Of a stretch of 40,953 nucleotides of DNA, positions 1,995-36,400 are shown in pieces. Below the pieces are notes generated by a model, which saw only the letters and a list, made by a program, of their open reading frames with translations, did not search any database and was not told the DNA's origin. Numbering within the stretch: position 1 is the stretch's first letter; every line of letters begins with the position of its first letter. The translations under genes and the position numbers were made by a program. Source of the stretch: a virus; IMG/VR virus record IMGVR_UViG_3300009605_007043, positions 1-40,953 of that record, one strand, 5' to 3'.

Positions 1995-3256
1995 AAGTGA
2001 TAGTAAGAGGACCAGCACTTACAAGAACTGGATATGGAGAACATTGCCGATTTGTTCTTAGAGCTTTAAGAACTATTGAAGATAAAGTCGATATATATCT
2101 TCTTCCAGTAAATTGGGGGGAATCCAATTGGATTTGGGAAGATAACGAAGAACGTCAGTGGATCGATTATACAGTAAGAAAAACAGCTTTATATCATCAA
2201 CAGGAAAATCCTCAATATGATATGAGTATTCAAGTTACCATTCCTAACGAGTGGCAGAAAATGGCGCCAATTAATATTGGAGTAACTGCTGGTATTGAAA
2301 CAACAAAAGTGGCGCCTATATGGTTACAGCAAGCTAATGAAATGGATAAAGTAATTACTGTTTCGAATCATTCGGCCGAAACGTTTTTAAATACGGTATA
2401 TGAAGGGACACACCCAGAAACCGGTCAAAAAGTTAAACTTGAGTGCAATAAAAAACTGGACGTGGTACATTATCCGGTAAAGACTTTTGAAAATGTAGAT
2501 TTAGATTTTAACTTTTCTACTAAATTCAACTTTCTAACCGTTGCTCAGCACGGCCCAAGAAAGAATCTCGAAAATACGATTAATTGGTTTGTTGAGGAAT
2601 TTATCGACAATCGGGATGTTGGATTAGTAGTTAAAACTTTTTCAAAAGGCGGCTCAATTATTGATAGAATTCACGCAAGAAAGATGCTTCAGGGGCTATT
2701 GGGTAAATATGAAAATAGACAATGCAAAGTATATTTACTTCATGGAGACATGACTGAAGAGGAAATGCACTCCTTATATAAACACAAGGATGTTCATTGT
2801 TTAGTTTCTTTAACGCATGGTGAAGGTTTTGGATTACCTCTTTTTGAAGCTGCATATTCTGCCATGCCTGTTTTAGCAACTGATTGGAGTGGCCATTTAG
2901 ACTTTCTTTATAAACCGGTGAAAGATAAAAAGGGTAAAGAAAAATTACGACCTCATTTTGCAAAAGTCGATTTTGATTTGCAACCTGTACAACAGTATGC
3001 GGTGTGGGATGGTGTTATACAAGCAGATTCAATGTGGGCATACCCTCAACAGGGCTCTTATAAGATGAAGCTTCGCGAAGTTTATAAAGATTATGGTCGA
3101 TTTAAAGCTCAAGCAAAGAAGCTTCAAAAATGGATTGCAAAAAACTTTACTGAGGAACAGCAGCATGCAAAGTTTAAGAAATTTGTGGAAGAATGGCTTC
3201 CATCTGAAGATGAATTGAATTGGCAACAAGAGTTAGACGCAATTGAAATAATATGA
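1991..3256 (+). CDS. GT4-type glycosyltransferase
   Basis: 421 residues from ATG 1991. The N-terminal segment (RGPALTRTGYGEHCR) resembles the acceptor-domain loop of GT4 proteins that modify glycans. The donor domain contains LTHGEGFGLPLFEAA with the E-x7-E pair E278 and E286, then PVLATDWSGHLDF. There is no signal peptide or membrane segment, so it should act in the cytoplasm. It is coupled by ATGA overlaps to the gene before (1991-1994) and after (3253-3256). The aromatic, Lys/Glu-rich C-terminal tail looks family-specific. Substrates are unknown. Confidence 0.85.
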   Translation: MKVIVRGPALTRTGYGEHCRFVLRALRTIEDKVDIYLLPVNWGESNWIWEDNEERQWIDYTVRKTALYHQQENPQYDMSIQVTIPNEWQKMAPINIGVTAGIETTKVAPIWLQQANEMDKVITVSNHSAETFLNTVYEGTHPETGQKVKLECNKKLDVVHYPVKTFENVDLDFNFSTKFNFLTVAQHGPRKNLENTINWFVEEFIDNRDVGLVVKTFSKGGSIIDRIHARKMLQGLLGKYENRQCKVYLLHGDMTEEEMHSLYKHKDVHCLVSLTHGEGFGLPLFEAAYSAMPVLATDWSGHLDFLYKPVKDKKGKEKLRPHFAKVDFDLQPVQQYAVWDGVIQADSMWAYPQQGSYKMKLREVYKDYGRFKAQAKKLQKWIAKNFTEEQQHAKFKKFVEEWLPSEDELNWQQELDAIEII

Positions 3257-4122
3257 AAAACTTAGTTTTTGTTGCAGATATGTTTCGTTCTGATATTTTA
3301 GGAGGAGCGGAAAATAATGATCATGTACTAATCAACCACTTAAAATCAATTACTTCAAATCTACAGCTGATCAGCTGTCGGACCCTAACTCCAGAACATA
3401 TTGAAGAAGGCGACTTCTTTGTTATAAGTAACTTTATTTTTCTTAGCGAAATTAACAAAGAACTTATCATGAAGAAACCATATATTATATATGAGCATGA
3501 TCATAAATATATAAAAACTAGGGATCCAAGTGTTTTTCCTGGCTTTCAAATACCGGAAGATCAGGTTATAAATAAGGAATTTTATGCAAATGCCAAAATG
3601 GTAGTAGTGTTGAGTACTATATGCAAAGAAATACTTCAAAAAACACTGCAAATTGACAATGTTTTTAGTATAGGATGCAGCTTATGGTCTGATGATAGGT
3701 TAGACTATATCAAAACCCTAATAGGCGAAGAAAAGAATGAAAAGTATGCAATTTTACAATCAAGTAATCCTATAAAAAATACATCCCGCGCTATAACTTT
3801 TTGTAATAAAAACAATATTGAATTTGACTTGATAAAACCTTGCGACGAAGAAGAGTTGCTAAAACAATTGGCAAAATACGAAGGGTTGGTATTCATCCCT
3901 GGAGTGTTAGAAACGTTCTCTAGAATATCTGCGGAAGCTAAGATGTTAAATTGCAAATTAGCTACAAATCCTAGACTATTGGGATTTGGTTCTGAAGAAA
4001 TATTTAATATGACCGGTGAAATATTGATAGAAGAAATAAGAGAAAGAAAAAATAAAGCTTTACAAGTATTTGAAGAAATTATAGAAGGTACCAATGGAAA
4101 ACGTAGTAATATTAGCATCTGA
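3253..4122 (+). CDS. Short GT-B glycosyltransferase-like protein
   Basis: 289 residues, clearly shorter than the two GT4 neighbours. The N-terminus (FVADMF...LGGAENND) has the loop seen at the start of GT-B acceptor domains. Near the C-terminus GVLETFSRISAEAKML keeps an E-x7-E pair (E220, E228), followed by a CKLATNP strand, the usual donor-site layout. It begins at an ATGA overlap with the previous gene and overlaps the RpiB-HldE gene by 29 bases. Either it is a compact glycosyltransferase or a degenerate one with an accessory role; the retained E-x7-E pair favours activity. Confidence 0.65.
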   Translation: MKNLVFVADMFRSDILGGAENNDHVLINHLKSITSNLQLISCRTLTPEHIEEGDFFVISNFIFLSEINKELIMKKPYIIYEHDHKYIKTRDPSVFPGFQIPEDQVINKEFYANAKMVVVLSTICKEILQKTLQIDNVFSIGCSLWSDDRLDYIKTLIGEEKNEKYAILQSSNPIKNTSRAITFCNKNNIEFDLIKPCDEEELLKQLAKYEGLVFIPGVLETFSRISAEAKMLNCKLATNPRLLGFGSEEIFNMTGEILIEEIRERKNKALQVFEEIIEGTNGKRSNISI

Positions 4123-4963
4123 TCACAACGGCGTAGAACTAAAATCACAGATTAGGTTGTTTTTAAAAAGCAAAGGCATTATAACAATTGACATTGGACC
4201 ATATGATACAGAGAAAAAGGTTGATTATGTCGATTACGCCACTCAGCTTGGTAAAATAATATCGAATGGAGATGCATCTAAGGGAGTACTCATTTGCGGA
4301 ACAGGAGTTGGGATGAGTATCGCTGCAAATAGAAATGATAAAATTAGAGCAGCTTTGGTACATAATTATTTTACTGCTCCAAAGTGCCGAGAACACAATG
4401 ATGCTAATGTGCTTTGCTTGGGTAGCTGGATAACTCCCTATCCTCAAGCAGAAGAAATAATGAATATTTGGATTGAAACTAGCTTTGGAGAAGGTCGACA
4501 TATAAAGAGAATCGATAAACTCTCGAAACGTGAAGAAGCAGAGATTGTTTTCACTAATGGCGTATTTGACATCATCCACACAGGTCACATTGAATTATTG
4601 AACTTTTCTAAGAATTTAGGGAAAAAATTGATAGTTGGCATTAATTCAGATAAGGCTGTTAAGTCATTGAAAGGTGATGATCGACCAATCAACAACGAGA
4701 ATGATAGAAAACGTGTATTAGAATCTTTAGGAATGGTTGACCAAGTTATTATATTTGATAACGTTGATCCATATGAACTAAGAGAATCCTTGGCGCCTGA
4801 TATATTAGTCAAAGGTGGTGAATGGAGCAAAGAAGAAGTCCGAGAACGAGATAACGTATCAGACCAAATTGAAATAAAAATTTGTCCATTTGTCAAAGAT
4901 TATTCAACCACAAACACAATTAAAAAAATATCTGATATAAGCACATGTCAAAAAAAGTCTTAA
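4094..4963 (+). CDS. RpiB-type sugar-phosphate isomerase fused to HldE-type nucleotidyltransferase
   Basis: 289 residues with two enzymes in one chain. Residues 1-146 are an RpiB-type aldose-ketose isomerase: SDHNG (D10, H11), LICGTGVG with the catalytic-type C68, HND with H101, and the GEGRH segment. Residues about 150-285 match the adenylyltransferase half of HldE (RfaE domain II): FTNGVFD, nucleotide-binding HTGH (162-165), NSD, LKGDDRP, LVKGGEW and a C-terminal TTNTIKKI. HldE normally carries a PfkB kinase where this protein has RpiB; the kinase is the next, separate gene. The start at 4094 has GAAGG about 5 bases upstream. Known chemistry is pentose- or hexose-phosphate isomerisation and ATP-dependent activation of heptose-1-phosphate. 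The inference is that the fusion isomerises and later activates a sugar phosphate of one pathway. Confidence 0.88.
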   Translation: MENVVILASDHNGVELKSQIRLFLKSKGIITIDIGPYDTEKKVDYVDYATQLGKIISNGDASKGVLICGTGVGMSIAANRNDKIRAALVHNYFTAPKCREHNDANVLCLGSWITPYPQAEEIMNIWIETSFGEGRHIKRIDKLSKREEAEIVFTNGVFDIIHTGHIELLNFSKNLGKKLIVGINSDKAVKSLKGDDRPINNENDRKRVLESLGMVDQVIIFDNVDPYELRESLAPDILVKGGEWSKEEVRERDNVSDQIEIKICPFVKDYSTTNTIKKISDISTCQKKS

Positions 4964-5721
4964 TAATTGGCGATACCATAATTGATAAAGATGTTTATCT
5001 TCAAGCCATTGGTCTTTCCTTAGAATCCCCAACAATGAAAACATCTTATTGTGGTGAAAGTGTTAGCTATGGCGGTGCTGCAAACGTTGCCAAATATGCA
5101 TCTTATTTTGGATTAGATATTACTTTTGTTAGTTGTATGCCATCAGGAAATGCTAGTATATTTTCTACGCAAAATAATCTAACTATGGTCAACTTAGATG
5201 ACAAAATAGAAAATACAAAAATCAGATATTACATCGATCACGGGAATGAAAAGTATAAATACCTGCAGGTAAACAATACAAATAAGAAAATATGTGATTA
5301 TGATGTGGACTTGGATATGGACTCTTATGATATCATAGCGTTTTCTGATTATCGTAGCGGAGTGATATCTGAAAAAATAATTTCAGAGAGTATTGCTAGC
5401 ACAGCAACAACATTCGGTGCTTCGCAAGTTTCAAGTCATCAATCTAATTTCAACATGTATCAAGATATGGATTATTTAATTTGCAATGAACACGAGTCAA
5501 CTTATTTTTCTAGAAGAGAAAATGTAATCATAACTAAAGGCTCTAACGGCTGTACTTTAAACAACAAAGACTATCAAGGACTTGTAGTTAAAGATCCTAA
5601 AAACATTATAGGCGCCGGGGATTGTTTTTATGCTGCGTATCTTGCTTATGAAGACCTAGATATCGCAAACGATGTGGCACGTGCTTATATAGAAGGAAAT
5701 TTATCTAGACATGTTAAATAA
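4945..5721 (+). CDS. PfkB-family sugar kinase, HldE N-domain-like
   Basis: 258 residues. The N-terminus VLIIGDTIIDKDVY, the SLESPT segment and YGGAANVAKYASYFG align with HldE (RfaE domain I) heptose-7-phosphate kinases, including the GGAANVA sugar/phosphate-binding loop. The C-terminus has TKGSNGCTL and the catalytic GAGDCFYAAYLAY motif of PfkB kinases. It is about 50 residues shorter than usual HldE kinase domains, mainly in the middle and at the end. The start overlaps the nucleotidyltransferase gene by 19 bases, and the pair together reconstitute the two halves of HldE in swapped order. Expected reaction: ATP-dependent phosphorylation of a sugar phosphate at C1. Heptose as substrate is inferred. 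Confidence 0.8.
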   Translation: MSKKVLIIGDTIIDKDVYLQAIGLSLESPTMKTSYCGESVSYGGAANVAKYASYFGLDITFVSCMPSGNASIFSTQNNLTMVNLDDKIENTKIRYYIDHGNEKYKYLQVNNTNKKICDYDVDLDMDSYDIIAFSDYRSGVISEKIISESIASTATTFGASQVSSHQSNFNMYQDMDYLICNEHESTYFSRRENVIITKGSNGCTLNNKDYQGLVVKDPKNIIGAGDCFYAAYLAYEDLDIANDVARAYIEGNLSRHVK

Positions 5722-6394
5722 ACTAGTAGAAGTCAATCAATCGCTAAAAAAGGAAGGACTAGTAATTTTTACATGGGGTAATGCTAGCTGCAGATTCCAA
5801 GAAGATAATTCTCTTTTTATCAAACCGTCAGGAGTGCCATTCGAATTCTTAGAAGAAAAAAAATTAGCAAAGGTTGATCTAGCCACTGGAAAACATCTAG
5901 ATGGTCTGAAACCCTCAGTCGACACTCCAACGCATCTTGTGTTATACAATGCTTTTCCGGAAATCAATGCTATTATTCATACGCACTCCAAGTATTGTAC
6001 TATATTTGCGCAAGCTAAGCACGATATCCCTTGTCTTGGTACCACACATGCTGATTACTTTTATGGTGATATTCCAGTTGTTGACGAGTTAAATGAACAA
6101 GAAATAGAAGAAAACTACGAAGAGAATACTGGAATAAAAATTGTAGAATATTTTCAAGACCATAATATATCTCCAGAAGTAATTCCTGCCGCTTTATCTC
6201 CTTCTCATGGAGTCTTCGTGTGGGGAAAATCGTTAGATGAAGCATTACAAAATGCAATTATTTTAGAAAATATAGCGGAAATGGCTTACAAAACCAAGCA
6301 GTTGTGTTATAATAAACATATTACTTTTGATAATTGTTTATTAAATAAGCATTTTCTAAGAAAGCATGGCAACAAAAAATATTATGGACAATGA
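5711..6394 (+). CDS. L-ribulose-5-phosphate 4-epimerase-like class II aldolase family protein
   Basis: 227 residues, the usual AraD/UlaF/SgbE length. Recognisable blocks in order are TWGNAS (21-26), KPSG (38-41), SVDTPTH (69-75), IHTHS with metal-ligand-type H90 and H92, the near-invariant GTTHADYFYGDIP (110-122), EENTG, and PSHG with H166, the third zinc-ligand candidate. These fit the AraD subgroup better than fuculose aldolases. Expected reaction: interconversion of L-ribulose-5-phosphate and D-xylulose-5-phosphate; a related sugar phosphate is possible here. It overlaps the kinase by 11 bases. With transaldolase and RpiB nearby it would feed the non-oxidative pentose phosphate pool. Confidence 0.85.
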   Translation: MLNKLVEVNQSLKKEGLVIFTWGNASCRFQEDNSLFIKPSGVPFEFLEEKKLAKVDLATGKHLDGLKPSVDTPTHLVLYNAFPEINAIIHTHSKYCTIFAQAKHDIPCLGTTHADYFYGDIPVVDELNEQEIEENYEENTGIKIVEYFQDHNISPEVIPAALSPSHGVFVWGKSLDEALQNAIILENIAEMAYKTKQLCYNKHITFDNCLLNKHFLRKHGNKKYYGQ

Positions 6395-6797
6395 AACTAA
6401 ATACGGCAGACAAGAACTACCACCCACCTCAAGCCCCATTAAAGAAATAGATAAGTACTGGGGCGATATAAAAACCCTCTTCGAGAACGACCAATATACA
6501 GTAAAAAGAATTTTTATGAGAAAAGGTACTCAAAGCAGTATGGAGTATCATATCAAAAAAGAAGAATCGTATTATATTGAATCTGGTAAGCTTAAAGTGG
6601 GTACAAGAATTGGAAGAGGAAAAAACACCTCATTGATATTGAATAAGAATGATGTTTTACACATACCACCAGGATTTATGCATATGAGAATTGCTTTAGA
6701 AGATACTGTAATTATTGAGTTTTCAACGCTAGATGACGATGGAGATTCACACATCGTTGAAGACGGAACAATCTACAAACATGAAGAGGAGATGTAA
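6366..6797 (+). CDS. Cupin protein, mannose-6-phosphate isomerase-like
   Basis: 143 residues. YTVKRIFMRKGTQSS, EYHIKKEESYYIESG and VLHIPPGFMHMRI follow the two cupin motifs of the type II phosphomannose isomerase family. An equivalent cupin lies at 10408, so the cluster has two divergent copies; this one is less typical (EYHIKKEE in place of the usual H-x-R-x-E) and may have another substrate. ATG 6366 is chosen because a weak AAGAAAG precedes it; the alternative ATG 6384 has no ribosome site. It overlaps the epimerase gene by 29 bases and the transaldolase start by one base (TAATG). Confidence 0.7.
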   Translation: MATKNIMDNETKYGRQELPPTSSPIKEIDKYWGDIKTLFENDQYTVKRIFMRKGTQSSMEYHIKKEESYYIESGKLKVGTRIGRGKNTSLILNKNDVLHIPPGFMHMRIALEDTVIIEFSTLDDDGDSHIVEDGTIYKHEEEM

Positions 6798-7465
6798 TGA
6801 AACTTTTTTTAGATACAGCGAACATAACACAAATAGAAGACGCGATGGAGAAAGGAGTAATCCAAGGGGTTACAACAAACCCTTCTCTTTTAGCTAAAGA
6901 GCCAAAAACTGATTTTTACAACCATATACAAGAAATTGTGAATCTTTGCAAAGATTATAAGGACGGCGTACCTCTGAGCGTAGAGGTATTTGCTAATGAA
7001 CCAGATGAGATGATTAGCCAAGCAGAAGAAATCATGCAACGCTTCGATTATCATAATTTGAATATCAAAGTGCCGGTAGGTTATGAGGAATTGAAAGTAA
7101 TAAGCAGTTTAGCTGATAAAGACATACCAGTCAACTGCACATGTTGTTTTACAGCTACTCAAATGCAGTTGGCAGCGCATTCAGGCGCTAGATATGTTTC
7201 TCTTTTTTATAATCGTCTTTTTGATGTAGGAGGTTCTCCGCTAAAAGTTATACAAAGAGTGCGAAGATTCATAGAAACAAACAGATTAGAATGTGAAATT
7301 ATTGCTGGAAGCATTAGAAATGCATATGATCTAGAAGATGCCTGGGATCATGGCGCTCATATAGTCACTGCTGGTTATTCTGTAGTTCAGAAGGCAACAG
7401 TTCATCCGAAAACTACAGAGTCTGTCGACGGTTTTCTGAAAGATTTTGGAGCGTGGATTAGTTAG
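6797..7465 (+). CDS. talC: Transaldolase, small TalC/FSA-type
   Basis: 222 residues, the length of the small transaldolase / fructose-6-phosphate aldolase group. FLDTAN, VTTNPSLL and NIKVPV are diagnostic; K91 in NIKVPV is the Schiff-base lysine. Two positions that separate activities within the family can be read: SVEV has Glu (E63) where fructose-6-phosphate aldolase has Gln, and SLFYNR has Phe where the aldolase has Tyr. Both point to transaldolase, which exchanges a dihydroxyacetone unit between fructose-6-phosphate and sedoheptulose-7-phosphate. GAGGAG lies 5 bases before the start. Cyanophages also carry talC, but here it sits among nucleotide-sugar genes, suggesting a role in supplying seven-carbon sugar phosphate. 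Confidence 0.88.
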   Translation: MKLFLDTANITQIEDAMEKGVIQGVTTNPSLLAKEPKTDFYNHIQEIVNLCKDYKDGVPLSVEVFANEPDEMISQAEEIMQRFDYHNLNIKVPVGYEELKVISSLADKDIPVNCTCCFTATQMQLAAHSGARYVSLFYNRLFDVGGSPLKVIQRVRRFIETNRLECEIIAGSIRNAYDLEDAWDHGAHIVTAGYSVVQKATVHPKTTESVDGFLKDFGAWIS

Positions 7466-7788
7466 TGGTGTACGTTTTCGACATCGATGGAACGATTTGT
7501 AACACAGAAGGTTCTGATTACGAGAATTCAACTCCAAAACAAGCGAGAATAAACAAAGTTAACAATCTATATGAAAGAGGTCATACTATAATCATGCAAA
7601 CTGCCCGTGGAATGGGAAGAACAGAGAACAATCAAGAATTAGCAATAAAAATATTATATAATTTTACACAATCTCAGTTGGATGACTGGGGCGTGAAATA
7701 TCATCAATTATTCTTAGGTAAGCCTGCCGGTGATTATTATATTGATGACAAAGGAATACCAGACAAGGAGTTTTTCAATGATAAATAA
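7465..7788 (+). CDS. Small HAD-family phosphatase-like protein
   Basis: 107 residues from a GTG start that overlaps the transaldolase stop by one base. VFDIDGTIC contains the HAD nucleophile motif DxDGT; MQTARG is motif II (T-A-R-G); GKPAGDYYIDDK supplies the motif III lysine and the motif IV DD pair. There is no cap domain insertion, so it belongs to the compact HAD phosphatases found in capsule and LPS sugar clusters. A reasonable role is dephosphorylating a sugar phosphate, for example the C7 phosphate removal that GmhB does in heptose synthesis, but no residue proves that substrate. Confidence 0.75.
   Translation: MVYVFDIDGTICNTEGSDYENSTPKQARINKVNNLYERGHTIIMQTARGMGRTENNQELAIKILYNFTQSQLDDWGVKYHQLFLGKPAGDYYIDDKGIPDKEFFNDK
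7765..7770 (+). promoter_or_regulatory. Ribosome binding site choosing start 7778
   Basis: AAGGAG lies 7 bases before ATG 7778, within the end of the HAD gene. The upstream in-frame ATG at 7730 has no comparable site. Confidence 0.65.
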
Positions 7789-8473
7789 TCCTGATTGGTT
7801 TCTAGAAAACCTTAAGAATAAAATTCCATTTGCTTATGTACGATTCAATGATGGCGAAATGATGGGAATTGCAAGAGTTGGTTCTGTTGTCGCTCGCGGA
7901 GATCAATATGTTGATCAAGCATTGAGCAAAGCACTCAAAGATGCCATTCTCCACCGACAAGAAAATTATTATATAGGCATACCTTGTTCTATTTGTTTCC
8001 CAGCCTATAGCAAGCTAGCCAAAGAAATGGTGGAAGACTACAATCTTACAACAAGCGCTGTTATACTAACAAATAAAAATTGGAAACGATTTGCTGATAG
8101 TCTTCCAAAGGTTATGGAGGGCAGAAGAATGCTATGGGTTTCTGGAAAAGACCAAGATCCAGAAAAATTAAAAGATTATGGCTTGGATATTGTGAAAACC
8201 ATAAGACTGTCCAATAAAAATAGTTGGAAACATTACGATGAGTTGAAAGAATTAGTACCTCAGTTTTTTGAACCGGGCGACGTTGTAGGTATCTCCTTGG
8301 GTCCAACTGCCCGTATTCTTTGCAAATATTGGTTCGAAAAATATCCAGAAGTCACATTTTTAGACATGGGAAGCTTATTAGACCCTATAACCAAGAACGT
8401 CTGGTTTAGCGCCCATAAAGGGTGGGACGAAACAGGCTTTAATCTTTTAGAAAGGTGTACTGAATGCAACTAA
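7778..8473 (+). CDS. GT-D fold glycosyltransferase-like protein
   Basis: 231 residues from ATG 7778. The opening segment FAYVRFNDGEMMGI (R22, D25, E27) matches the R-[FY]-x-D-G-E signature of the GT-D fold proteins first described as DUF1792 in streptococcal glycosylation loci, where the D-G-E acids belong to the donor and metal site. Further on, VGISLGPTARIL and PEVTFLDMGSLLDP look like the second nucleotide-fold half. No signal peptide. It overlaps the HAD gene by 11 bases and the following heptosyltransferase-like gene by 10. Likely transfers a sugar in the same pathway; donor unknown. Confidence 0.7.
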   Translation: MINNPDWFLENLKNKIPFAYVRFNDGEMMGIARVGSVVARGDQYVDQALSKALKDAILHRQENYYIGIPCSICFPAYSKLAKEMVEDYNLTTSAVILTNKNWKRFADSLPKVMEGRRMLWVSGKDQDPEKLKDYGLDIVKTIRLSNKNSWKHYDELKELVPQFFEPGDVVGISLGPTARILCKYWFEKYPEVTFLDMGSLLDPITKNVWFSAHKGWDETGFNLLERCTECN

Positions 8474-9294
8474 AGAAGCATTTAGTCGCCGGTCCCTGGT
8501 GTGGTGAATTCGGCTGGGAGTTATTTGCGTGGCATGGCTATGTGAGAGCCTTATCCAGACATTTTGAGAAAACCACTGTGGTTTCTAGACCTAATTCTGA
8601 ATATTTGTATTCTGATTTTGCAGATAAATTTATTCCTTTTGTTCCGAAGGGCGGCTTAGCTGATTCTTTCTTTATGCATAACTTTGATTATAATTCAGCA
8701 GTTAAAAGCGTTGTACGCGAAAACAATATAGAAATGAACAAGGACACAACATTGCTTGTTCCCAAAAGAATTGGTTTTCCTCCCAACACTCATTACACTG
8801 AGGCTATAAAGCTTGGACAATTCTCAATAACACCAGAATATCGTTTATATGGCGCAGAATCTGAACTCAAATATGATTTTATTTTTCATATTAGAGACCG
8901 AAAACTACGAAGTGAAGACAATTGGATTATCGATAATTGGCGTAAACTGCGGGATTTATTAGGAAAAGACAAAAAGATAGCTTGTGTTGGCACTAGTGAA
9001 CAATCTGGCATCATTGAAGATACAGATGATCTACGCGATATCTCGCTAGAAAAAACCTGCAATTTGCTTCATAATGCTAAATATGCTTTTGGTCCTTCTT
9101 CTGGACCAATGCATCTAGCTAGTCTATGTGGATGTCCCCACGTCGTATGGTCCATCAAAGATCGCACAAGATATACTACAAATTGGAATCCACTTGAAAC
9201 ATCAGTACTCTATCTAGATGATGAAGGATGGCATATATCTCCGGAACGAGTACATAAAGAATATATAAATTGGAGTAAAAATGAAAACACTTAA
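8464..9294 (+). CDS. GT9/heptosyltransferase-like glycosyltransferase
   Basis: 276 residues. The C-terminal block AFGPSSGPMHLASLCGCP is close to the donor-site block of GT9 heptosyltransferases (DSGpmHlAaalg). The N-terminus GPWCGEFGWELFAWHGYVRAL resembles the acceptor loop of GT-B enzymes, though the GEFGWE wording is distinctive. It is shorter than E. coli WaaC/WaaF (about 320-350 residues). Placed in a cluster with heptose-type kinase and adenylyltransferase, it is the best candidate for using the activated sugar they would make. Family membership is moderately supported; heptose specificity is inferred. Confidence 0.6.
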   Translation: MQLKKHLVAGPWCGEFGWELFAWHGYVRALSRHFEKTTVVSRPNSEYLYSDFADKFIPFVPKGGLADSFFMHNFDYNSAVKSVVRENNIEMNKDTTLLVPKRIGFPPNTHYTEAIKLGQFSITPEYRLYGAESELKYDFIFHIRDRKLRSEDNWIIDNWRKLRDLLGKDKKIACVGTSEQSGIIEDTDDLRDISLEKTCNLLHNAKYAFGPSSGPMHLASLCGCPHVVWSIKDRTRYTTNWNPLETSVLYLDDEGWHISPERVHKEYINWSKNENT

Positions 9295-11838: not shown

Positions 11839-13395
11839 ATGAAATATAAAGTACTCATAACGACTAGTGGGATAGGTAGTCGATTAGGAGATCTAACTGA
11901 TTTTACAAACAAATCCTTAGTTAGAATCGGAGACAAGCCAGCTATTTCTCATATTATTGATATGTATCCTGTAGATACTAATTTTGTAATCACATTGGGA
12001 CATTATGGTGAATATGTCCAAGAATATATTAACATTGCACATCCGGATTGTAACGTTACTTTCGTTTGGGTTGATAAATTCACCGGACCAGGCACAAGCT
12101 TAGCCTATAGTATAATCCAGGCGAAAGAGGAATTGCAATGTCCTTTTGTTTTTAATGCATGTGATACACTGCTTAAGGATAATATTAACTTACTTGGAAT
12201 TCTAGAAAAAGAACAAAATTTCTGTGTAGGGGCAAAAAGAGAAGACACATCGCAATATGCCACTCTTTTAATAGAAAGAGATAATTTGCTACAAATAAAG
12301 GAAAAAGGCGAAATAAATTATGATTTTGCTTATATAGGCTTATGTGGAATAAAAGATTATGAACTATTTTGGAAGAACATAGAGGAGGCTTATAACCAAG
12401 ATAGAAACAACTCTTTTTTACACGAAGGGAATATTATTAACACAATGCTTTCAGAAGTCCAGTTTAAGTTTTTCAGTACTAATGGCTGGTTGGATATAGG
12501 AAATGTCGGAGAACTTGAAAAAACTAGAAAATATTTCAAATCTGAGATAGAAGTATTAGAAAAGAAAGAAGAGTCAATTTATTTTTTTGATGAATATGTT
12601 GTAAAGTTTTTTCACGATAAGAAGATAAACTCAAATCGTATTCAACGTGCTTCACATCTATCTGGCTTAACTCCTGAAATAATTGATTCTGGTGAAAATT
12701 TCTATAAATATAAAAAAGTCAAAGGAGATTTGCTAGCTAAATCCGTTACGGAATCATCATTTGAAGGATTGTTATTATGGGCTAAAGAAAATTTATGGGT
12801 GAAGCAAGAATGTGAAAATATGGAGCAACTTTGTTATGATTTTTATATAAAGAAGTCTCTTAAAAGAATAGATGCTTATCTTGATGGCAAGTCGGATGTA
12901 GAAGAAAAGATTAATGGAGAATTGATACCTAGTGTTAAAGAGTTATTCGCTAGGATAGATATTAAAAAATTATGCTCTGGCATACCGGTACGCTTTCATG
13001 GAGATTTTATTTTAGATAATATTTTAGAAACCGATACGGGATTTTGTCTTCTAGATTGGCGACAAGATTTCGGAGGGGACTTGTCCGTGGGGGATATTTA
13101 TTACGATTTAGCTAAATTAAATCATAACTTGACAATTAATCATGAAATTGTAAATAAAAAGTTATTCAATCATGAGGCAGAAGATTGTTATATCTTGTGT
13201 AATTCAAAATTAATTGAGTGCAAAAGTATATTAAAAAAGTTTGTATTAAAAAATGGATTAGATTATGGGAGAATAAACTTATTAACTGCTATTATATGGA
13301 TAAACATGGCTCCTTTGCATGAATATCCCTTTAGTAAATTCTTGTATAATTTTGGAAAGTATAATCTCAATAAGGCGTTGAATTGTGAAAATTAA
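11839..13395 (+). CDS. Bifunctional sugar nucleotidyltransferase / APH-fold kinase
   Basis: 518 residues in two domains. Residues 1-235 form a nucleotidyltransferase of the RmlA/LicC type: ITTSGIGSRLGDLT and NKSLVRIGDKP are the NTP-binding loop and lysine, NACDTL holds a metal aspartate, and GWLDIGNVGEL closes the domain. Residues about 245-500 form an aminoglycoside/choline-kinase-like domain: the catalytic loop HGDFILDN (H387, D389, N394) and LLDW with metal-binding D406. The combination resembles LicC plus LicA, or MurU plus AmgK, in one chain: phosphorylate a free sugar or alcohol, then activate it. AAGGA lies before the start at 11839. Substrate unknown; salvage of a free sugar or choline-like group is inferred. 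Confidence 0.8.
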   Translation: MKYKVLITTSGIGSRLGDLTDFTNKSLVRIGDKPAISHIIDMYPVDTNFVITLGHYGEYVQEYINIAHPDCNVTFVWVDKFTGPGTSLAYSIIQAKEELQCPFVFNACDTLLKDNINLLGILEKEQNFCVGAKREDTSQYATLLIERDNLLQIKEKGEINYDFAYIGLCGIKDYELFWKNIEEAYNQDRNNSFLHEGNIINTMLSEVQFKFFSTNGWLDIGNVGELEKTRKYFKSEIEVLEKKEESIYFFDEYVVKFFHDKKINSNRIQRASHLSGLTPEIIDSGENFYKYKKVKGDLLAKSVTESSFEGLLLWAKENLWVKQECENMEQLCYDFYIKKSLKRIDAYLDGKSDVEEKINGELIPSVKELFARIDIKKLCSGIPVRFHGDFILDNILETDTGFCLLDWRQDFGGDLSVGDIYYDLAKLNHNLTINHEIVNKKLFNHEAEDCYILCNSKLIECKSILKKFVLKNGLDYGRINLLTAIIWINMAPLHEYPFSKFLYNFGKYNLNKALNCEN

Positions 13396-14356
13396 ATATT
13401 TTATTGGTCCCATGTCCAAGCTTGTAGTTGATTCTATAATAGAATTTTCAAAAAAAACTGGAAACACGATTGGCTTGATTCCTTCTCGTAGGCAAGTAGA
13501 GTATAATGGCGGTTATGTTAACAACTGGACAACAGAAGCTTTTAAGAAATATACAAATGATTTTTTTGTTACAAGAGATCATGGAGGACCGGGGCAAGGA
13601 TTAAAGATGGATGACGGCTATGAGTCTTTAAGAATAGATTGTAAACATTTAGATATGATTCATATTGATCCATGGAAAAAATACCCACAATATGAAGAAG
13701 GTCTCAAAAAAACCATTGAGATGATCAAATTCTGTCATAAGGAAAATTCAAATATATATTTTGAAGTGGGCACAGAAGAGTCTATAAGAAGATTTACAGC
13801 AAATGAAATTGATCAGCTTCTAACCGATCTAAAGAATGCGCTAGAAACAGAAGAATATAACCAAATATTATATTGTGTAATACAATCAGGAACATCTTTG
13901 AAGGGAAATGTGAATACAGGACTGTACGACACAGAACGATTGGTGTCGATGATTGAAGTTGTACAAAATCATGGCTTTTTGTCCAAAGAACATAACGGTG
14001 ACTATCTTCCTGCGTCGCTAATAAAAGAAAAATTCTCTTTGGGACTAGATTCAATAAACATAGCTCCGGAATTTGGTCAAATAGAGACGAAAACATATTT
14101 GGAAAAAATAAAAAATGAAAAGCCAGAGTTATTAGATATGCTTTGGGCTATCTGTTATGAGTCGCGACGATGGGAGAAATGGATAGATAATGATTTTGAT
14201 CCTTTAAAGCAGAAAGAAGAACTCATTAATATATGTGGTCATTACGTTTTGTCTTACCCGGATTTTCAGAAAGAAATAAAATCCAAATTTGACGATATCG
14301 ACGAAGAGATAAAAAACAATATAAAAAAGAAGTTGGAGACTTTATTCAATGGATAA
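13385..14356 (+). CDS. GatZ/KbaZ-like TIM-barrel protein
   Basis: 323 residues from GTG 13385, overlapping the previous gene by 11 bases. GLIPSRRQVEYNGGYVNNWT and RDHGGPGQG (D65, H66) resemble the QVN-GGYTG and GGDHLGP regions of GatZ/KbaZ proteins, once known only as the non-catalytic subunit of tagatose-1,6-bisphosphate aldolase and later shown in some members to be 4-epimerases of keto-sugars. It is about 100 residues shorter than typical GatZ. No GatY/KbaY catalytic partner is present in the window, which favours an independent enzyme, possibly an epimerase or aldolase for the pathway sugar. The family assignment rests on these motifs read by eye. Confidence 0.55.
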   Translation: MKIKYFIGPMSKLVVDSIIEFSKKTGNTIGLIPSRRQVEYNGGYVNNWTTEAFKKYTNDFFVTRDHGGPGQGLKMDDGYESLRIDCKHLDMIHIDPWKKYPQYEEGLKKTIEMIKFCHKENSNIYFEVGTEESIRRFTANEIDQLLTDLKNALETEEYNQILYCVIQSGTSLKGNVNTGLYDTERLVSMIEVVQNHGFLSKEHNGDYLPASLIKEKFSLGLDSINIAPEFGQIETKTYLEKIKNEKPELLDMLWAICYESRRWEKWIDNDFDPLKQKEELINICGHYVLSYPDFQKEIKSKFDDIDEEIKNNIKKKLETLFNG

Positions 14357-14711
14357 AAGAGCAAAGACAATATTTTGTGATATCGATGGTACATTAATAG
14401 AACATAATCCTCCAATAGACACCGTAAAACCTGATTACAAGCCAAGCTTATTGCCTAGAACTCTTGAAGCGTTGCTAGAATGGGATAAGAAAGGATATAA
14501 CATTATTTTAGTTTCTGGACGCAGAGAGGGCGCCAGAAAACAAACAGAACAACAGTTGTCTGAATTGGGCATTATATATGATCAGCTAATATTGGGAATT
14601 GGTGGCGGCAAACGATATCTAATAAATGACAGAAAACCAGCCAACGATGAAGATTATGCAATTGCTATCAATATTAAAAGAAACATCGGTATAGGAGAAA
14701 TAGATATATGA
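14349..14711 (+). CDS. Second small HAD-family phosphatase-like protein
   Basis: 120 residues. FCDIDGTL is HAD motif I; IILVSGRREGARKQTEQQL contains motif II and a conserved-looking helix; YLINDRKP gives the C-terminal acidic motif. It differs from the HAD at 7465, notably in an EWDKKGYNI-SGRR section and a GIGGGKR loop, so the two are probably not redundant. GGAG lies about 10 bases before ATG 14349; the gene overlaps the previous one by 8 bases and the next by 4 (ATGA). Probable sugar-phosphate phosphatase or a structural HAD; substrate unknown. Confidence 0.7.
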   Translation: MDKRAKTIFCDIDGTLIEHNPPIDTVKPDYKPSLLPRTLEALLEWDKKGYNIILVSGRREGARKQTEQQLSELGIIYDQLILGIGGGKRYLINDRKPANDEDYAIAINIKRNIGIGEIDI

Positions 14712-18070: not shown

Positions 18071-19645
18071 ATGGCTGATGACGCTTCTCTACAGGGCGAA
18101 TTTGCACTTAAAAATACATTAGATTTTTCTGATGATGTAGTATTATTTGATTCTACTGCTAATCCTATATCATTTATAAAAAATGTGGTTGCGCAATCGG
18201 CAACTCCAAACACTTTTAGAACGCGAAAAAGGTTTTATGGTCGCTTCATAACACAACTTTGGGACAATGGGACCGCGGGAAAAGAGGGCCCGGGAATGTG
18301 GGATGATGTTTTAGCGGCTCTTAAAAGAGCCACCGGCGAGTCAACTCAAGAAATGAATTTGTTTGTAGCTATAGTACATGTAGAAGAACTTCAATCGTAT
18401 CCATTTCCAGAAGCAAGTGACTTTGATGCGATAATGAAAATTGCCAATAACGGAGGAATTTTTAAGTCATACGTGTATAATGGATTGCCGCCTGCATATG
18501 GTGACAATGTTTTAGTTTCTTTTGCAGATCCTGCGACAAGAAGCGAAGGAGTGTTCGAACATCCGCTTGTGGGCGGAGCGGCTGGAGGAGCCGCAGCAGG
18601 ATCCATCGGCGCCGCCGGCGGCGGATCAGGAGGCGGTGGGGCCCGTTTTGGTAGTTGTAAAAGTAGCCCTCGCGCCAAAGCTAAACGTCCAGCAGCTACA
18701 ACAGCAACATCGGCTGCAGCAACACCAGCCGCGGCAACACCAGCAGCTGCGCCGGCCACGCCGCCTGCGCCACAGCCCGCCGCGGCTAAAAACCAAACTC
18801 CGGATGTGGCTCAACCGGAGACTGCACTTCCACGCTGCACAAAAAAAGGCAAAAGAATATTTTGGGTTCGTAGTGGTCAAGCATCAGATATGCCACAAAT
18901 TGGCCCAAATAGAATATTTGGAACTGACTGGTCAGGGTGGAATCGCATTTCACGGTTGCCTTTTGATAAAATAAGAGCAGAAGGCATAGAATATTCCATG
19001 ATTAAATTGACTCAAAAGACTAAAAATTCCAATAAATTTGTAGAAGGCCAAATTTCAGGTGCTAAAAGTGAAGGAATTTTGATTGGCCCTTATCATTTTT
19101 GCGGTTCTCAGGCTAAAGGTGACCCTGAAACCTTGGCTAAGCGTGAATTTGCAGTGTTCGCACGAGAAATAACTAAATCAGGACGCCATTGGGACTTAGC
19201 TCCTGCTTTGGATTTTGAAAGTGGAAGGTGTAGAACTGGGAAAAAGCCAACGCCATGGGCTGGTTCTCAAACTGAATGTAGCCGAGCTAATTGCATATTT
19301 TATTTGAAGTTTTGTCAATTATTATTTAACGAGTTTAAAGTAAAGCCTATGATTTATACCGCCGGTTGGGCCCGGGGCGCTTATATGAATGGAATAAAAG
19401 ATTGGCCTGAATGGAAAGAAATTGGACAAGTGAGTACTTTATGGTGGGCTGAATACGATAGAACGCGCGATCAGTCTAAAACTGATGCCGTTGGAGGAAG
19501 AAAAAATCCATATTGGGATCCATGGAAAGGTTATGATATATGGCAATTTTCTGGTTGGGGCAGATTTGAATCACTTGGTGGAAAAGGAAAATTTGATTTT
19601 AATTCCATGAAAAAATCTTCTTTATCTAAACTTAAAATGCCCTAA
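18071..19645 (+). CDS. Baseplate hub protein fused to GH25 muramidase
   Basis: 524 residues in three parts. Residues 1-165 look like a gp5-type hub/OB domain: RKRFYGRFITQLWDNG, LFVAIVHVEELQSYPFPEA, YNGLPPAYGDNVLVSFADP. Residues about 165-255 are an Ala/Gly/Pro low-complexity linker, GC-rich against an AT-rich background. Residues 275-520 are a glycoside hydrolase 25 lysozyme: FGTDWSGW (D286), PYHF, APALDFES (D381 and E383, the catalytic DxE), IYTAGW, LWWAEYD and IWQFSGWGR. T4 gp5 carries a GH24-type lysozyme in the corresponding role, so the catalytic module has been replaced. Expected function: tail-associated cutting of peptidoglycan during DNA entry. AAGGGG precedes the start. Confidence 0.85.
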   Translation: MADDASLQGEFALKNTLDFSDDVVLFDSTANPISFIKNVVAQSATPNTFRTRKRFYGRFITQLWDNGTAGKEGPGMWDDVLAALKRATGESTQEMNLFVAIVHVEELQSYPFPEASDFDAIMKIANNGGIFKSYVYNGLPPAYGDNVLVSFADPATRSEGVFEHPLVGGAAGGAAAGSIGAAGGGSGGGGARFGSCKSSPRAKAKRPAATTATSAAATPAAATPAAAPATPPAPQPAAAKNQTPDVAQPETALPRCTKKGKRIFWVRSGQASDMPQIGPNRIFGTDWSGWNRISRLPFDKIRAEGIEYSMIKLTQKTKNSNKFVEGQISGAKSEGILIGPYHFCGSQAKGDPETLAKREFAVFAREITKSGRHWDLAPALDFESGRCRTGKKPTPWAGSQTECSRANCIFYLKFCQLLFNEFKVKPMIYTAGWARGAYMNGIKDWPEWKEIGQVSTLWWAEYDRTRDQSKTDAVGGRKNPYWDPWKGYDIWQFSGWGRFESLGGKGKFDFNSMKKSSLSKLKMP

Positions 19646-30400: not shown

Positions 30401-33400
30401 ATGTCATTAAAAGATTTATTTAAAGGAGTCAAATCTCAATATCTTTCGTCCACTTCGTTAAATGATTTAACGGGCAATCTAGAATCTGTAGACTACATTA
30501 AGTTTTATTTAGAAAACAAAAAAAGATTTATACCTTTAGTAGATTATTCAGAGCCCAAGAACTTTGCGCGTTTTGGTTCAGCAGAAAAATATTATTACGA
30601 TAGTATTAGAAGAACTTTTCAAACTTATCCTTATGATGGCTCTAAAAAAGAGAAAATACTTTGGGAACTTTCTTCTTCTCATTTAGATCTTTATCTTTTT
30701 GAAAATGGTTATCCACGAACTACGGGATATGTTACATTTACATCGGAAAGTTTAACGGCTACTGCTACTTCTACAAATAAAGATTATTGGGGATCATACG
30801 GCGCAGCTGGAACAGCTTCTTATGAATATATTTTTGTTAATGGTGGCCCTCATGAGGGTTCCGGTAAAAGGGTGTATCTTGATCCGGATACTGGCGAAGC
30901 TAAATATCGAAAAAATGCAAACATTTGGGATACCTCAAAAAACAGAGAGTGCAACCTTAAAATTGGCGGTACCGACGGAAACACAGTAGAATTTTGGCTT
31001 AAAAAAGCCGCCTTCGATACTGACGCTACTGAAAAAGAAGTAATTTTTGATATTCATACGACTTCTTCGATTTCTTCAAGCGCTGATTATGGCCGTTTAA
31101 GAGTTGAAATGACTGGCTCAAAAGGATCCGGCGGTACCGGAGGCGCGCCGTTTCTTATAACATATATGTCGGGCACCGCTGGTTTTGCAAATCAAGCTAT
31201 CGGAAGTTCAATAACAAGCGCTTCTATCGCAGATGATAGTTGGCATCATTACACTTTTAGATTCAAAAACACCGGTAGTAATGTAGTTGCTGATTTGTTC
31301 ATCGATGGCGCTCATAATCACCGCGTTACAGCTGGTACAACTGTCGATTATGTAAGTGGAACCATTGTTGGAACATTGGCTGCGCTAGCTACTTACCCTT
31401 CTGGTACTGAAGCCGGCGCACCACAAGCTTATAAAGGCTGGGGTAAGCTTTCTGGCTCTTTAGACGAGTTCAGATACTGGAAGACTTGGAGATCATCTGA
31501 GCAAATTCAAACACGCTGGTTTGATCAAGTTGGAGGAGGTACTAATACTGATGAGGCTAATACTCATTTAGGAGTATATTATAAATTTAATGAAGGCATT
31601 GCATTGGCCTCTTCTATAGATTCCACTGTTTTGGACTATTCCGGCCGCGTGAGCAATGGTACATGGACCGGATATAATTCGAATTATTCGCGCAACACAG
31701 GGTCAGCTATTGATGACGCTAATGCCACTATGACTAACTTTACCGGCAGTGAGTTTCGCGATCCTATTTTATATGCAACTCAGCCAGACGTCGCATCTTT
31801 TTTAACAAACCAACGAAATAAAGGTAAACTGTACGATTATACAAACCCTTCTAACTTATACTATAGTATTCCTACATGGATCTTAGAAGAACATGACGCA
31901 AACAATCCGAATGATGAAGGGTTGATAGGCAATTCTCTTTGGAACTTAATTCAAATTTTAAGTAGCTATTTTGATGATGTGGCCGCGCAGATAAAGTCGA
32001 TACCCAGCATAACTCAGCCTGATTATCGTTCAGTTGTTAGTGGAACTATTGCTGCTAAGCCTATTCCTTTTATGGATAGAGCTTTAGAAGGAAAAGGGTT
32101 CGTTTCTCCGGAAATATTCTCAGGATTAGATGCTTTAGAGGCATTAGAAAATAGAGATAATAACAGCTTATATACTCAAAAGATGTATGATGTTAAAAAC
32201 ACTATTTATCAAAACATATATAATAACCTGCAGTATATTTATAAATCAAAAGGTACAGAAAAATCATTTAGAAATTTAGTCCGTTGTTTTGGAATTGACG
32301 ATGAAATATATAAATTTAACGTTTACAGTAATAATGTTGAATATATTTTTAGAAATAATTATAGGTCGGTCGCTGAAAAGCATAAATTAATTAATTTTAA
32401 TACCATAGCAAATAGCGATGGTACCATATATCAATATTCCAGTAGTTTAAACCCCAACTCTACAAAAACATATATTGCAGCTAGTGAAAATTATGATAGT
32501 TTTACTTCGCCTGAAGCTAGTTTACCTTTTAGTGTAGAGGCAAATGTAATTTTCCCCTTTAGAGGGCAGAGTTACGGAGATGCATCATTGTTGCTTCCTA
32601 ATGCCACAAAGAGAGAAAACAATTACCCAATTATGCAAACTGCTAGTTTGTTTGGGCTACATACCGCCATAGACACCGATCCGGGCGAAACCACATGGGC
32701 TGATAACGATTATGCCAACTTTGTTGTAAAAGCAATTAAACCGGAACTTTATACAAATAAAGCTTATTTTGCTCTTACGGGCACAGCCGGCGGTTTTATT
32801 CATCCTGAACTTATTTCTTCGGAATATAATGATGTATATAATGATACTAATTGGAGCTTTGGTGTATCTTTGTACCCTCAAAAATATCTCAATGCTAATC
32901 AAATTCCAGGCACTTCTGGATCAGCACATGGCACATATGTAGTTGAATTTTCGGGAATTCAAAGCATTTTGGATGTAACGATTAATGAATTTACTGTAAG
33001 TGGTACTATGGACGGCGATCAAGCTATTAAATTTATGGCGTCTCCAAAAAGATTATTTGCCGGCGCTCACAGAACTAATTTTACCGGTTCATTATTAAAC
33101 AGCAGTGAGGTTAAATTTAACAATCTGAAAGTATGGCAAAATAAATTAAGCATTTCAGATTTAAAAGTGCATTCAGCAGATCCAAACAATTATGGTTTAG
33201 CCGATCCAGCACAGAACGCTTATTTGTTTAACTCTTCGATAAATAAAGTATATGTTCCCAACAAAGAAACACTATTATTGTATTGGAACTTCGATAATGT
33301 AACTGGTTCTGACGCTAGCGGAGAATTTATTGTAGAGGATCTTACTTCGGGTTCTATTACTCAAACCCCAAGATATGGGTGGCTATCTGAAATTAACAAG

Positions 33401-36400
33401 CAACAATATCTTGGAAAAGCGTATGAATTTGAAGCATCAAGTACAGAGGTGTCTGTTTTAGATGAAATCATAACAGCTAGACCAAACTTACCAGAAGTTA
33501 TTGGTAGTGGCGATATGATTACGGTGATGCAAAATGATGATATATATTTTACTAGAGATAAGAGACCTACTTTCTTTGACTTATATGTAGAAAAAAGTTT
33601 ATATCAAAATGTTTCTCAAGAAATGTTAAAATTTATGGCCGGCGTTGTAGATTTTAACAATCTTATTGGCCATCCAGTTGATATTTATCGTCATGAATAT
33701 AAGTCATTGGGAATATTAAGAGAGTCATTTTTCCAAAGATTAAAAAGCGCTCCGGACGTTGATAAATATATTGAATATTTTAAGTGGTTTGATATTGCTA
33801 TTGCTTCAATGATTCAAAAAATAGCTCCTATGTCCTCGGGATTAGATGAGAGACCTTTGAGAACCATTATTGAATCTCACATATTAGAAAGAAGCAAATA
33901 TCAGAACAAATTCCCAACATACGAATTTAAGCAATCTGACCCTGAAGGTAGTTTACTTGGCGTTAATGAACTGCTCTATGATTGGGAATTTGGAAAAGCT
34001 TCGTTATATAACGACGATAGGATTCTTTCCGCGCCAGGTCCATATTCATTATTGTTTAATGGTGTTAACTCTGAGGTCCAGATAACTGATAGCGATCTAG
34101 ATTATACACCTGATGATGATGATCGATCTTGGTCTATTTGGTTTAAAGGCGGCGGTAATGCCCTTAATCATCTATTTGTACATGGAGAAACGGTTGCCTC
34201 TGTTGCTATATACGTTACTTCCGCCGGCGTCCTTTATTTCAATGATCTAGATGGCAGCTATGTTTCTTCAGGCGCGACTCTGGATTTAGATCAGTGGAAC
34301 AATGTAACTGTTACCATAGATAAGTCAGGCGGCGTGGGCGATGGGGTCCAGAAGGTATATGTTAATGGCGTACTCGTGGTCACGGACGCTTTTGTCACTA
34401 CAGGCGCTGCAACCGGTCAATTGACTATTGGCGCTACCGCGTTCTCCGGGCATAAATTGAAGGGTAATGCGGATTGGTTTACTTATTGGACAAAACTCCT
34501 TTCTGGCGATGAGGTAGAAGAATTATATAATAATGGAAAACTTTTCAATTTAGAAGATTTCTCGGCATATTCTGATATTAAACTTTGGTGGAAATTGGGT
34601 GACGGACCTGGTGGACTCGCTGATGATTTTTCTGGAAACGATTATAATGGTACTCTTTTTGGAGTAACCCTCCGGTCGACAATTGTACCAGATTATGAAG
34701 GTTCATCTGCAAGAAAAAATAATTGCCTTTGGCTTGATGAAAGAGCATCAAGGACTGGCCAACTTATAACTTCTGGCGACGCCGCGGTCGATGCTGATCG
34801 CGATACTATTTTAACAGTTTTAAATAATCAGAATAATGCTACTGCTCCTAATTTAAGTGGCTCAGATGGCGCCTATGAAGGATCGACATTTGCTATTAGA
34901 AGGTTCGCTCGACCATATAAATTATCTGCAGCTGCACAAAAAGAAATTCATGGCGGTAGCAATACTTATGAAAATAAAAAAATAGGTTTTTGGGATGCTA
35001 TTCGCCAACGTCCCACTCCTGACGGCGCCAGTGAAGGCGCTATTATCGCTATAGAGCCTACTGATTCTTCGTTAGAAAGCTTTAAAAGTTGCGATGATGA
35101 TTCAGCTTTAAGACTGGGAAAAAGAAAATATTCTTTTTCAGCTCAAACTAGTATTGACGGCAATTCATTTACTATTAATGATAAATATAAAGGTGATTTG
35201 ATATTACCATTTAGTCTTTATAGTTCATCGATAAACAATGATGGATCACGACGAGGCGGTGAAGAGTGGAAGCTTTCAGATTTTCAAGCTAATTTAGACA
35301 TTACTAATTTACATAGTGACGCTTATGGCCCATTTAATGATGTTCCAATGCAAGGACCGTTTACTGAAAAATATGTTGGGGGCCGGCCATATAGACACGT
35401 ATTTAGTACTTTTACTAGGCGATGGCCCACTGATGCTCCTCAAGGGGAAAGATTAGAAGGCTGGATGTTGAACGCTAGTTCTGGAAAATTAGTCCTTGTT
35501 AATCCGGATACCCCCAGTTCACCTTATTTTCGTAATGAAATAGCTAAACGCCCCGTTAATATTGCGAATATTCAACAAACGACCGGAGCGGTTACTGCGG
35601 ATTATATTAACCCTCTAAGTGCAACTATTATTGGTAATTACTCCAAGGGTTACGAGATAGTGATGACTAATGGCCGCTCTATTAATAATAGATATATGGC
35701 GGAAGCTGATGGAATAGTTACAGGAACCGTAACTTATTCTCCAATAGTCTCTGGCTCTGTTGAATTCCCACTCCCCAGAAGAGATTTAACTGGTAGCAAT
35801 AGTTTTGTTATCGTTAATAGGTTCTCGTCACCTGGCGATCCAGCAACAATGGGCGAAGGTATGTTAGACCTCGCAGCTGCCGAATATAGCGTTTATAATG
35901 CTCTTCCTTGGCGTAATTTAAGCGTAAGAGAACCTTTGGATGAACTTTATTCTGATCATTGTAAACAATTTGGGTATTTTAGTGATGCATTCAACTCATC
36001 TAGTTGGGCCCAAGCGATACGTTCTGGTCTCAAAGCTGTTGACTCTTATCCCGGTACAAGTGGATCAGTTAACGAAAATTATTATTATAAAGCCGGCACT
36101 TATGCTGATGCTACAGCCTCATTCCACAAGATTAATAGAAATGGAAGATTACAGCCTTATCTTTCTGAATATTCTACATTTGAGTATACAAATACGCACG
36201 TGTTGTCACTTGATGGAGAAGATAATTATGCTAATATAGGCAGCCCCGAAACTTGGGATGCTATTATTGGAAATGATACTGCGGGGGGGTCTAATGAAAC
36301 ATACACTCTTTCTGCTTGGATTTGGGCTACGTCATTAGGCCATAGCGGAGGAGGTAGTTATCCGACAGTGTTTGATTTTGGGACTCAAGATATTTACTTT

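Follow-up and report, generated by a model that had tools for sequence, protein, structure and literature searches.

The well-known route of heptose activation begins with a SIS-family isomerase. The window, by which we mean the whole 40,953-nucleotide stretch analysed (a 41-kb virus record), raises the question of what a phage does with an isomerase of an unrelated family, RpiB, joined to the activating enzyme itself, in a gene block that adds a C4 epimerase and whose carriers are mostly phages. The first-pass annotation had read the gene at 4094-4963 as an intact RpiB-type isomerase fused to an HldE-type nucleotidyltransferase, and had suggested that it may provide an alternative first and last step of heptose activation. 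The features that bear on the question are as follows.

4094..4963, + strand: RpiB-nucleotidyltransferase fusion (Pfam/NCBIfam, AlphaFold and Foldseek, 64 related fusion loci)
4945..5721, + strand: PfkB-family kinase, HldA-like, candidate C1 kinase (PF00294, 44.5 bits; adjoins the fusion in 59/64 loci)
5711..6394, + strand: AraD-type class II 4-epimerase, candidate C4 epimerase (PRK08193; E. coli AraD 1jdi; 54/64 loci)
6366..6797, + strand: cupin, sugar isomerase/epimerase-like (PF00190; 58/64 loci)
6797..7465, + strand: TalC-type transaldolase, candidate source of sedoheptulose-7-phosphate (S7P) (PF00923, 147 bits; Glu63, Phe137; 54/64 loci)
7465..7788, + strand: small HAD phosphatase, candidate C7 phosphatase (EcbF-BcbF, 55 bits, below cut-off; PHROG 1238; 52/64 loci)
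8464..9294, + strand: possible glycosyltransferase (homologous to proteins of loci L002 and L003 that have a weak match to GT9, heptosyltransferase)

The fusion is encoded by a single unbroken ATG-to-stop frame of 289 amino acids, with an RpiB domain at residues 5-143 and an HldE/HldC-type nucleotidyltransferase (NT) domain that runs from residue 144 or 150 to residue 280, leaving almost no linker. Pfam LacAB_rpiB (PF02502) matched residues 5-143 with 160 bits, and CTP_transf_like matched residues 153-274 with 67 bits; NCBIfam PRK05571 matched the RpiB domain with 164 bits. The RpiB domain also passed the cut-off of the TIGR01120 rpiB equivalog (145.6 bits, cut-off 138.65), a sequence-level match that implies no activity. 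The NT domain scored below the cut-off of the TIGR02199 rfaE_dom_II equivalog-domain model (156.7 bits, cut-off 181.5), which is still its best nucleotidyltransferase family. The AlphaFold model contains two domains (mean pLDDT 83.4), and Foldseek comparison with the PDB gave RpiB 3he8 as the best match of the model and HldC 5xf2 as the best match of the second domain. Segment 133-145, which includes Arg135 and Arg139, was modelled with low confidence in the monomer. In the RpiB family these two arginines serve the adjacent subunit, so low confidence in this segment is expected for a dimer. The RpiB/LacAB family residues Asp10, His11, Cys68, His101, Asn102, Arg135 and Arg139 are all invariant across 49 fusion sequences, and position 12 of the domain is Asn. 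The single frame, the family matches and the invariance of C68 and H101 thus bear out the earlier reading of the domains. The kinase that the isomerase was said to replace in HldE is encoded by the next gene, at 4945-5721.

We searched viral contigs and 84,980 species genomes for the same domain architecture, as had been suggested. Besides the window, 64 loci encode the complete fusion: 56 lie on viral contigs, the largest of 284 kb, and 8 on metagenome-assembled (MAG) cellular contigs. Because the architecture recurs in these contigs, the fusion is not an assembly chimera; it is shared by 57 viral contigs, including the window, and the 8 MAG contigs, and its sequences form 44 clusters at 90% identity, confirming that it is genuine and conserved. 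No single place in any of 50,697 phage records covered 80% of the fusion, and searching annotated phage records at the nucleotide level gave one match only, 155 bases long. We found no published description of an RpiB-nucleotidyltransferase-heptose fusion in the literature searched, consistent with the earlier statement that this domain pair is not known as a characterised enzyme. Five of the 8 cellular contigs are from Patescibacteria; the cellular carriers are Parcubacteria, Kaiserbacteria, two Taylorbacteria, Doudnabacteria (a copy on a 247-kb contig), an 'archaeon' MAG, a Longimicrobiales bin and an Acidobacteria bin. The fusion is not a general trait of Patescibacteria, being present in the seed genome alone among 380 members of the group. 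Three of the cellular contigs are short (3.5-6 kb) and could be mis-binned viral DNA. Two near-identical short contigs that bear the block (L172 and L173) are binned in MAGs of two different phyla (as Longimicrobiales and as Acidobacteria) and are possibly mis-binned viral or mobile DNA.

The window contains T4-like contractile-tail genes, a judgement based on its baseplate wedge proteins and a late sigma factor. Near the baseplate genes, 18071-19645 encodes an endolysin-like protein of glycosyl hydrolase family 25 that has an Ala/Pro-rich linker. An open-ended frame of at least 3517 residues (30401-40951) extends past the contig end and probably encodes a giant tail or fibre protein.

In the window, the fusion gene heads a conserved block of six genes, followed in order by those for the HldA-like kinase, the AraD-type epimerase, the cupin, the transaldolase and the HAD phosphatase, within a run of nine consecutive genes (3253-9294) that overlap by 1-59 bp. 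Some of the absences in the neighbour counts listed above are due to contig ends. TIGR02198 is the best family of the kinase (59.9 bits) and likewise of the kinases of six relatives (74-185 bits), in every case below the equivalog-domain cut-off of 345. The AraD gene scored 277 bits against PRK08193, the L-ribulose-5-phosphate epimerase subfamily (cut-off 257), and matched E. coli AraD 1jdi with an E value of 1.5e-61. In four viral records that contain the rest of the block, AraD was absent both from the block and from elsewhere in the record, indicating that this step is variable. In seven loci (L059, L061, L099, L100, L155, L112 and L172), another subtype of class-II aldolase fills the epimerase slot; it resembles PRK06557 in L059 and retains Asp120 and the Tyr-Gly-Gln end. 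The model of the cupin (pLDDT 90.7) is similar to many cupins in the PDB, CapF and cupin sugar isomerases being among them, and our guess is that the protein may act as an epimerase, anomerase or isomerase. Searches of PDB sequences with the single kinase and cupin sequences gave no match. The cupin protein of Doudnabacteria is 366 amino acids long, and its C-terminal part, which matched no Pfam family, appears HAD-like by eye. Phe137 is present in 43/43 block transaldolases and Glu63 in 42/43. These are residues of transaldolase-type, S7P-forming enzymes, and on this basis we rejected a fructose-6-phosphate aldolase identity for the TalC gene. In Doudnabacteria, both transketolase halves are encoded ~5 kb from the fusion.

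The possible glycosyltransferase at 8464-9294 has no Pfam match, and its L002 homologue matches GT9 at 0.0016. Of 31 viral records, 12 contain GT9 genes (8 above cut-off), which in 11 of the 12 lie within ~7 kb of the fusion, and GT9 genes are also near the fusion in three MAG contigs; none was found in the other 19 viral records, which include the window. Three phages (L019, L023 and L024) have a second, separate nucleotidyltransferase-PfkB-cupin set downstream of the fusion block, which suggests two activated sugars per phage. A possible second sugar-activation group lies at 11839-14711 of the window; it consists of an NTP_transferase with an APH-like kinase attached, a protein resembling class-II aldolases and another HAD protein.

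The substrate of the isomerase can be approached through its phosphate site. RpiB binds the pentose phosphate through Arg113 (PMC3755991; PMC4783025); the hexose-phosphate isomerase LacAB uses instead an arginine located elsewhere, Arg39, and has a longer pocket (PMC3755991). The position equivalent to Arg113 (M. tuberculosis numbering) is Trp (W112) in 49/49 fusions. Among 45 control RpiBs, drawn chiefly from one phylum, as well as from Patescibacteria and viruses, and so less than a full survey, this position is Arg in 40, Lys in 2 and Trp in 2; the latter are the unfused RpiBs of the split blocks described below, and Trp occurs in 0/43 of the others. The AraD-type enzymes of the block show a parallel change. 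The position of Ser75, beside Ser74, which we take to be a phosphate contact by analogy with FucA, is Val, Thr or Ile in 42/42 block members and Ser in 28/30 ordinary AraDs. The zinc ligands H95, H97 and H171 are kept in 42/42, as is D120, and Y229 is kept in 41/42 with one gap; Asp120 and Tyr229 are the catalytic residues of AraD (PMC5434028). That two enzymes are altered at phosphate sites with their catalytic residues kept argues against the annotated pentose phosphates. The loss of Arg113 and Ser75 shows that phosphate contacts are altered, not that the substrate has seven carbons.

Two phages encode the parts of the fusion by separate genes of the same genome. In these, L116 and L118, a stand-alone RpiB with Trp112 lies within a block of AraD, RpiB, PfkB, transaldolase and cupin genes; the nucleotidyltransferase is its own gene on the same contigs, beside HAD and second PfkB genes, and a putative GT9-like gene, so labelled from a reading of its sequence, lies upstream of the block. 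Since both split RpiBs carry W112 too, W112 marks the pathway and not the fusion. In a tree of RpiB domains, a branch with modest support (SH-aLRT 83) sets the fusions and split RpiBs apart from the rest.

The block is best explained as a previously undescribed version of nucleotide-sugar activation of the S7P type. On balance we favour, by a little, the view that the fusion provides the isomerase and the last activating step of a self-contained phage pathway to an S7P-derived NDP-heptose, for which we infer the following substrates, step order, chain length, nucleotide and glycan target. Transaldolases make or consume S7P, and the block enzyme would make it or pull it into the pathway. S7P shares the C3/C4 configuration of xylulose, so inversion at C4 by the AraD-type enzyme would, in most versions of the block, yield D-manno-heptulose-7-phosphate. 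The RpiB domain would convert ketose to aldose. In the natural products of RpiB/LacAB enzymes (ribose, allose and galactose phosphates) the C2 hydroxyl points to the right, and by this precedent the expected aldose is D-glycero-D-galacto-heptose-7-phosphate, or D-glycero-D-altro-heptose-7-phosphate where AraD is missing. The HldA-like kinase would then phosphorylate C1, the HAD enzyme would strip the C7 phosphate, and the NT domain would form the NDP-heptose for nearby glycosyltransferases. Stated in full, as a GmhA-independent route from S7P through manno-heptulose-7-phosphate to NDP-D-glycero-D-galacto-heptose, found mainly in phages and a few Patescibacteria, the proposal is tentative, and we would sooner expect some detail of it to be wrong. 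To our knowledge, NDP-D-glycero-D-galacto-heptose has no known biosynthetic route. Known heptose activation uses an isomerase, a C1 kinase, a C7 phosphatase and a nucleotidyltransferase in the same sequence, and HldE-type nucleotidyltransferases accept other heptose stereoisomers (PMC10948575). The kinase and NT domain are closest to HldA and HldC, though under the equivalog cut-offs, and we lean slightly towards heptose as the sugar instead of a hexose or pentose.

Against heptose, the RpiB domain and the AraD gene take their names from pentose substrates and score above the cut-offs of pentose families (TIGR01120; PRK08193). They could instead act in a route in which AraD converts D-xylulose-5-phosphate to L-ribulose-5-phosphate, RpiB forms an L-aldopentose-5-phosphate, and the kinase, HAD enzyme and NT domain yield an NDP-pentose (NDP-ribose where AraD is missing) that could decorate DNA or glycans, with the transaldolase merely feeding the pentose phosphate pool. 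Pentose modification of DNA is known in the T4-like phage RB69 (PMC6024577) and in Shewanella phage Thanatos (PMC12838424). We consider this route unlikely, given the changed phosphate contacts of both enzymes, the resemblance of the kinase and NT domain to HldA and HldC, and the five Patescibacteria that retain a separate, ordinary RpiB beside the fusion, which also rules out a housekeeping RpiB role in these carriers. An RB69-like arabinose pathway was rejected because the enzymes differ: the RB69 candidate genes are of another kind, SIS and NTP-transferase (PMC6024577).

LacAB differs from RpiB in precisely the Arg113 contact that the fusions also lack (PMC3755991), and tagatose-6-phosphate has the C3/C4 configuration expected of a 4-epimerase product of fructose-6-phosphate. 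A route from fructose-6-phosphate through AraD to tagatose-6-phosphate, through a LacAB-like RpiB domain to galactose-6-phosphate, and through the kinase, HAD enzyme and NT domain to an NDP-hexose thus stays chemically consistent as well. Nevertheless, galactose donors come from ordinary metabolism, leaving little reason for a dedicated route; the conserved transaldolase would have no role; the kinase and NT domain are heptose-type; and GT9 genes cluster with the block. We therefore regard a hexose product as rather improbable. It is more doubtful by far that RpiB, AraD and transaldolase boost nucleotide precursors during infection while the NT domain and kinase form an independent ADP-heptose patch in the same operon. 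Cyanophage transaldolase is an auxiliary metabolic gene (PMC9599517), and sets of NT, PfkB and cupin genes without RpiB exist in other phages; however, the covalent fusion and a gene order kept throughout 44 clusters at 90% identity speak for a single pathway, W112 recurs in the RpiB that stands alone in the split block, and AraD is not part of the central pentose phosphate pathway.

In a heptose pathway the RpiB domain would stand in for GmhA, which the first-pass annotation had found missing from the window. We found no GmhA-type SIS isomerase (SIS_2, PF13580) in 41 viral records, comprising the window and 40 others, and none in 5 of the 8 MAG genomes with the fusion; a gmhA elsewhere in the phage, which would have spoken against the proposed role, was likewise not found in these records. 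The host's own GmhA may supply the isomerase step. The suggestion of an alternative first and last step stands insofar as the surroundings of the fusion fit sugar-1-phosphate activation. It overlooked W112 and the enzymes of the middle steps, and an 'alternative GmhA' is likely too simple a description, because AraD in the block makes the product probably not the manno isomer and hence probably not ADP-manno-heptose.

If an unusual heptose is the product, the block would represent both a novel route to a nucleotide sugar and a novel means by which phages alter surface or virion glycans. The pathway can be recognised in sequences by its W112 and S75 marks; 'ribose-5-phosphate isomerase' and 'ribulose-5-phosphate epimerase' labels in viral genomes can distort accounts of viral pentose metabolism. 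Glycosyltransferases surround the block, which lies beside tail genes. The host-recognition region of pelagimyophages is arranged likewise, and a role in modifying LPS against co-infection has been proposed for it (PMC7029224). The phage likely uses the sugar to modify the host surface or the virion; DNA modification is possible.

The block follows the logic of the E. coli ADP-heptose pathway (GmhA, HldE, GmhB, HldD), with a ketose-7-phosphate isomerase, a PfkB C1 kinase, a phosphatase and a CTP_transf-like nucleotidyltransferase, and with S7P as the source, as proposed here (PMC10948575). It differs in having an RpiB-type isomerase, fused to the nucleotidyltransferase instead of the kinase, in the added AraD epimerase, transaldolase and cupin, and in viral records without GmhA. 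With RpiB/LacAB enzymes, the fusion shares the domain fold, the catalytic Cys68 and His101, Arg135 and Arg139; by contrast, every fusion has Trp at the Arg113 equivalent, together with Asn12 and an attached nucleotidyltransferase. The RB69 arabinosyl-hmC module is likewise a phage-encoded activated-sugar route of a T4-like phage; its candidates are SIS-type and NTP-transferase-type, and the available part of its description includes no RpiB-NT fusion, AraD or transaldolase (PMC6024577). The HygP route to ADP-D-glycero-D-altro-heptose likewise activates an S7P-derived non-manno heptose with an HldE-type nucleotidyltransferase (PMC10948575), whereas the block described here has an RpiB-family isomerase and an extra C4 epimerase.
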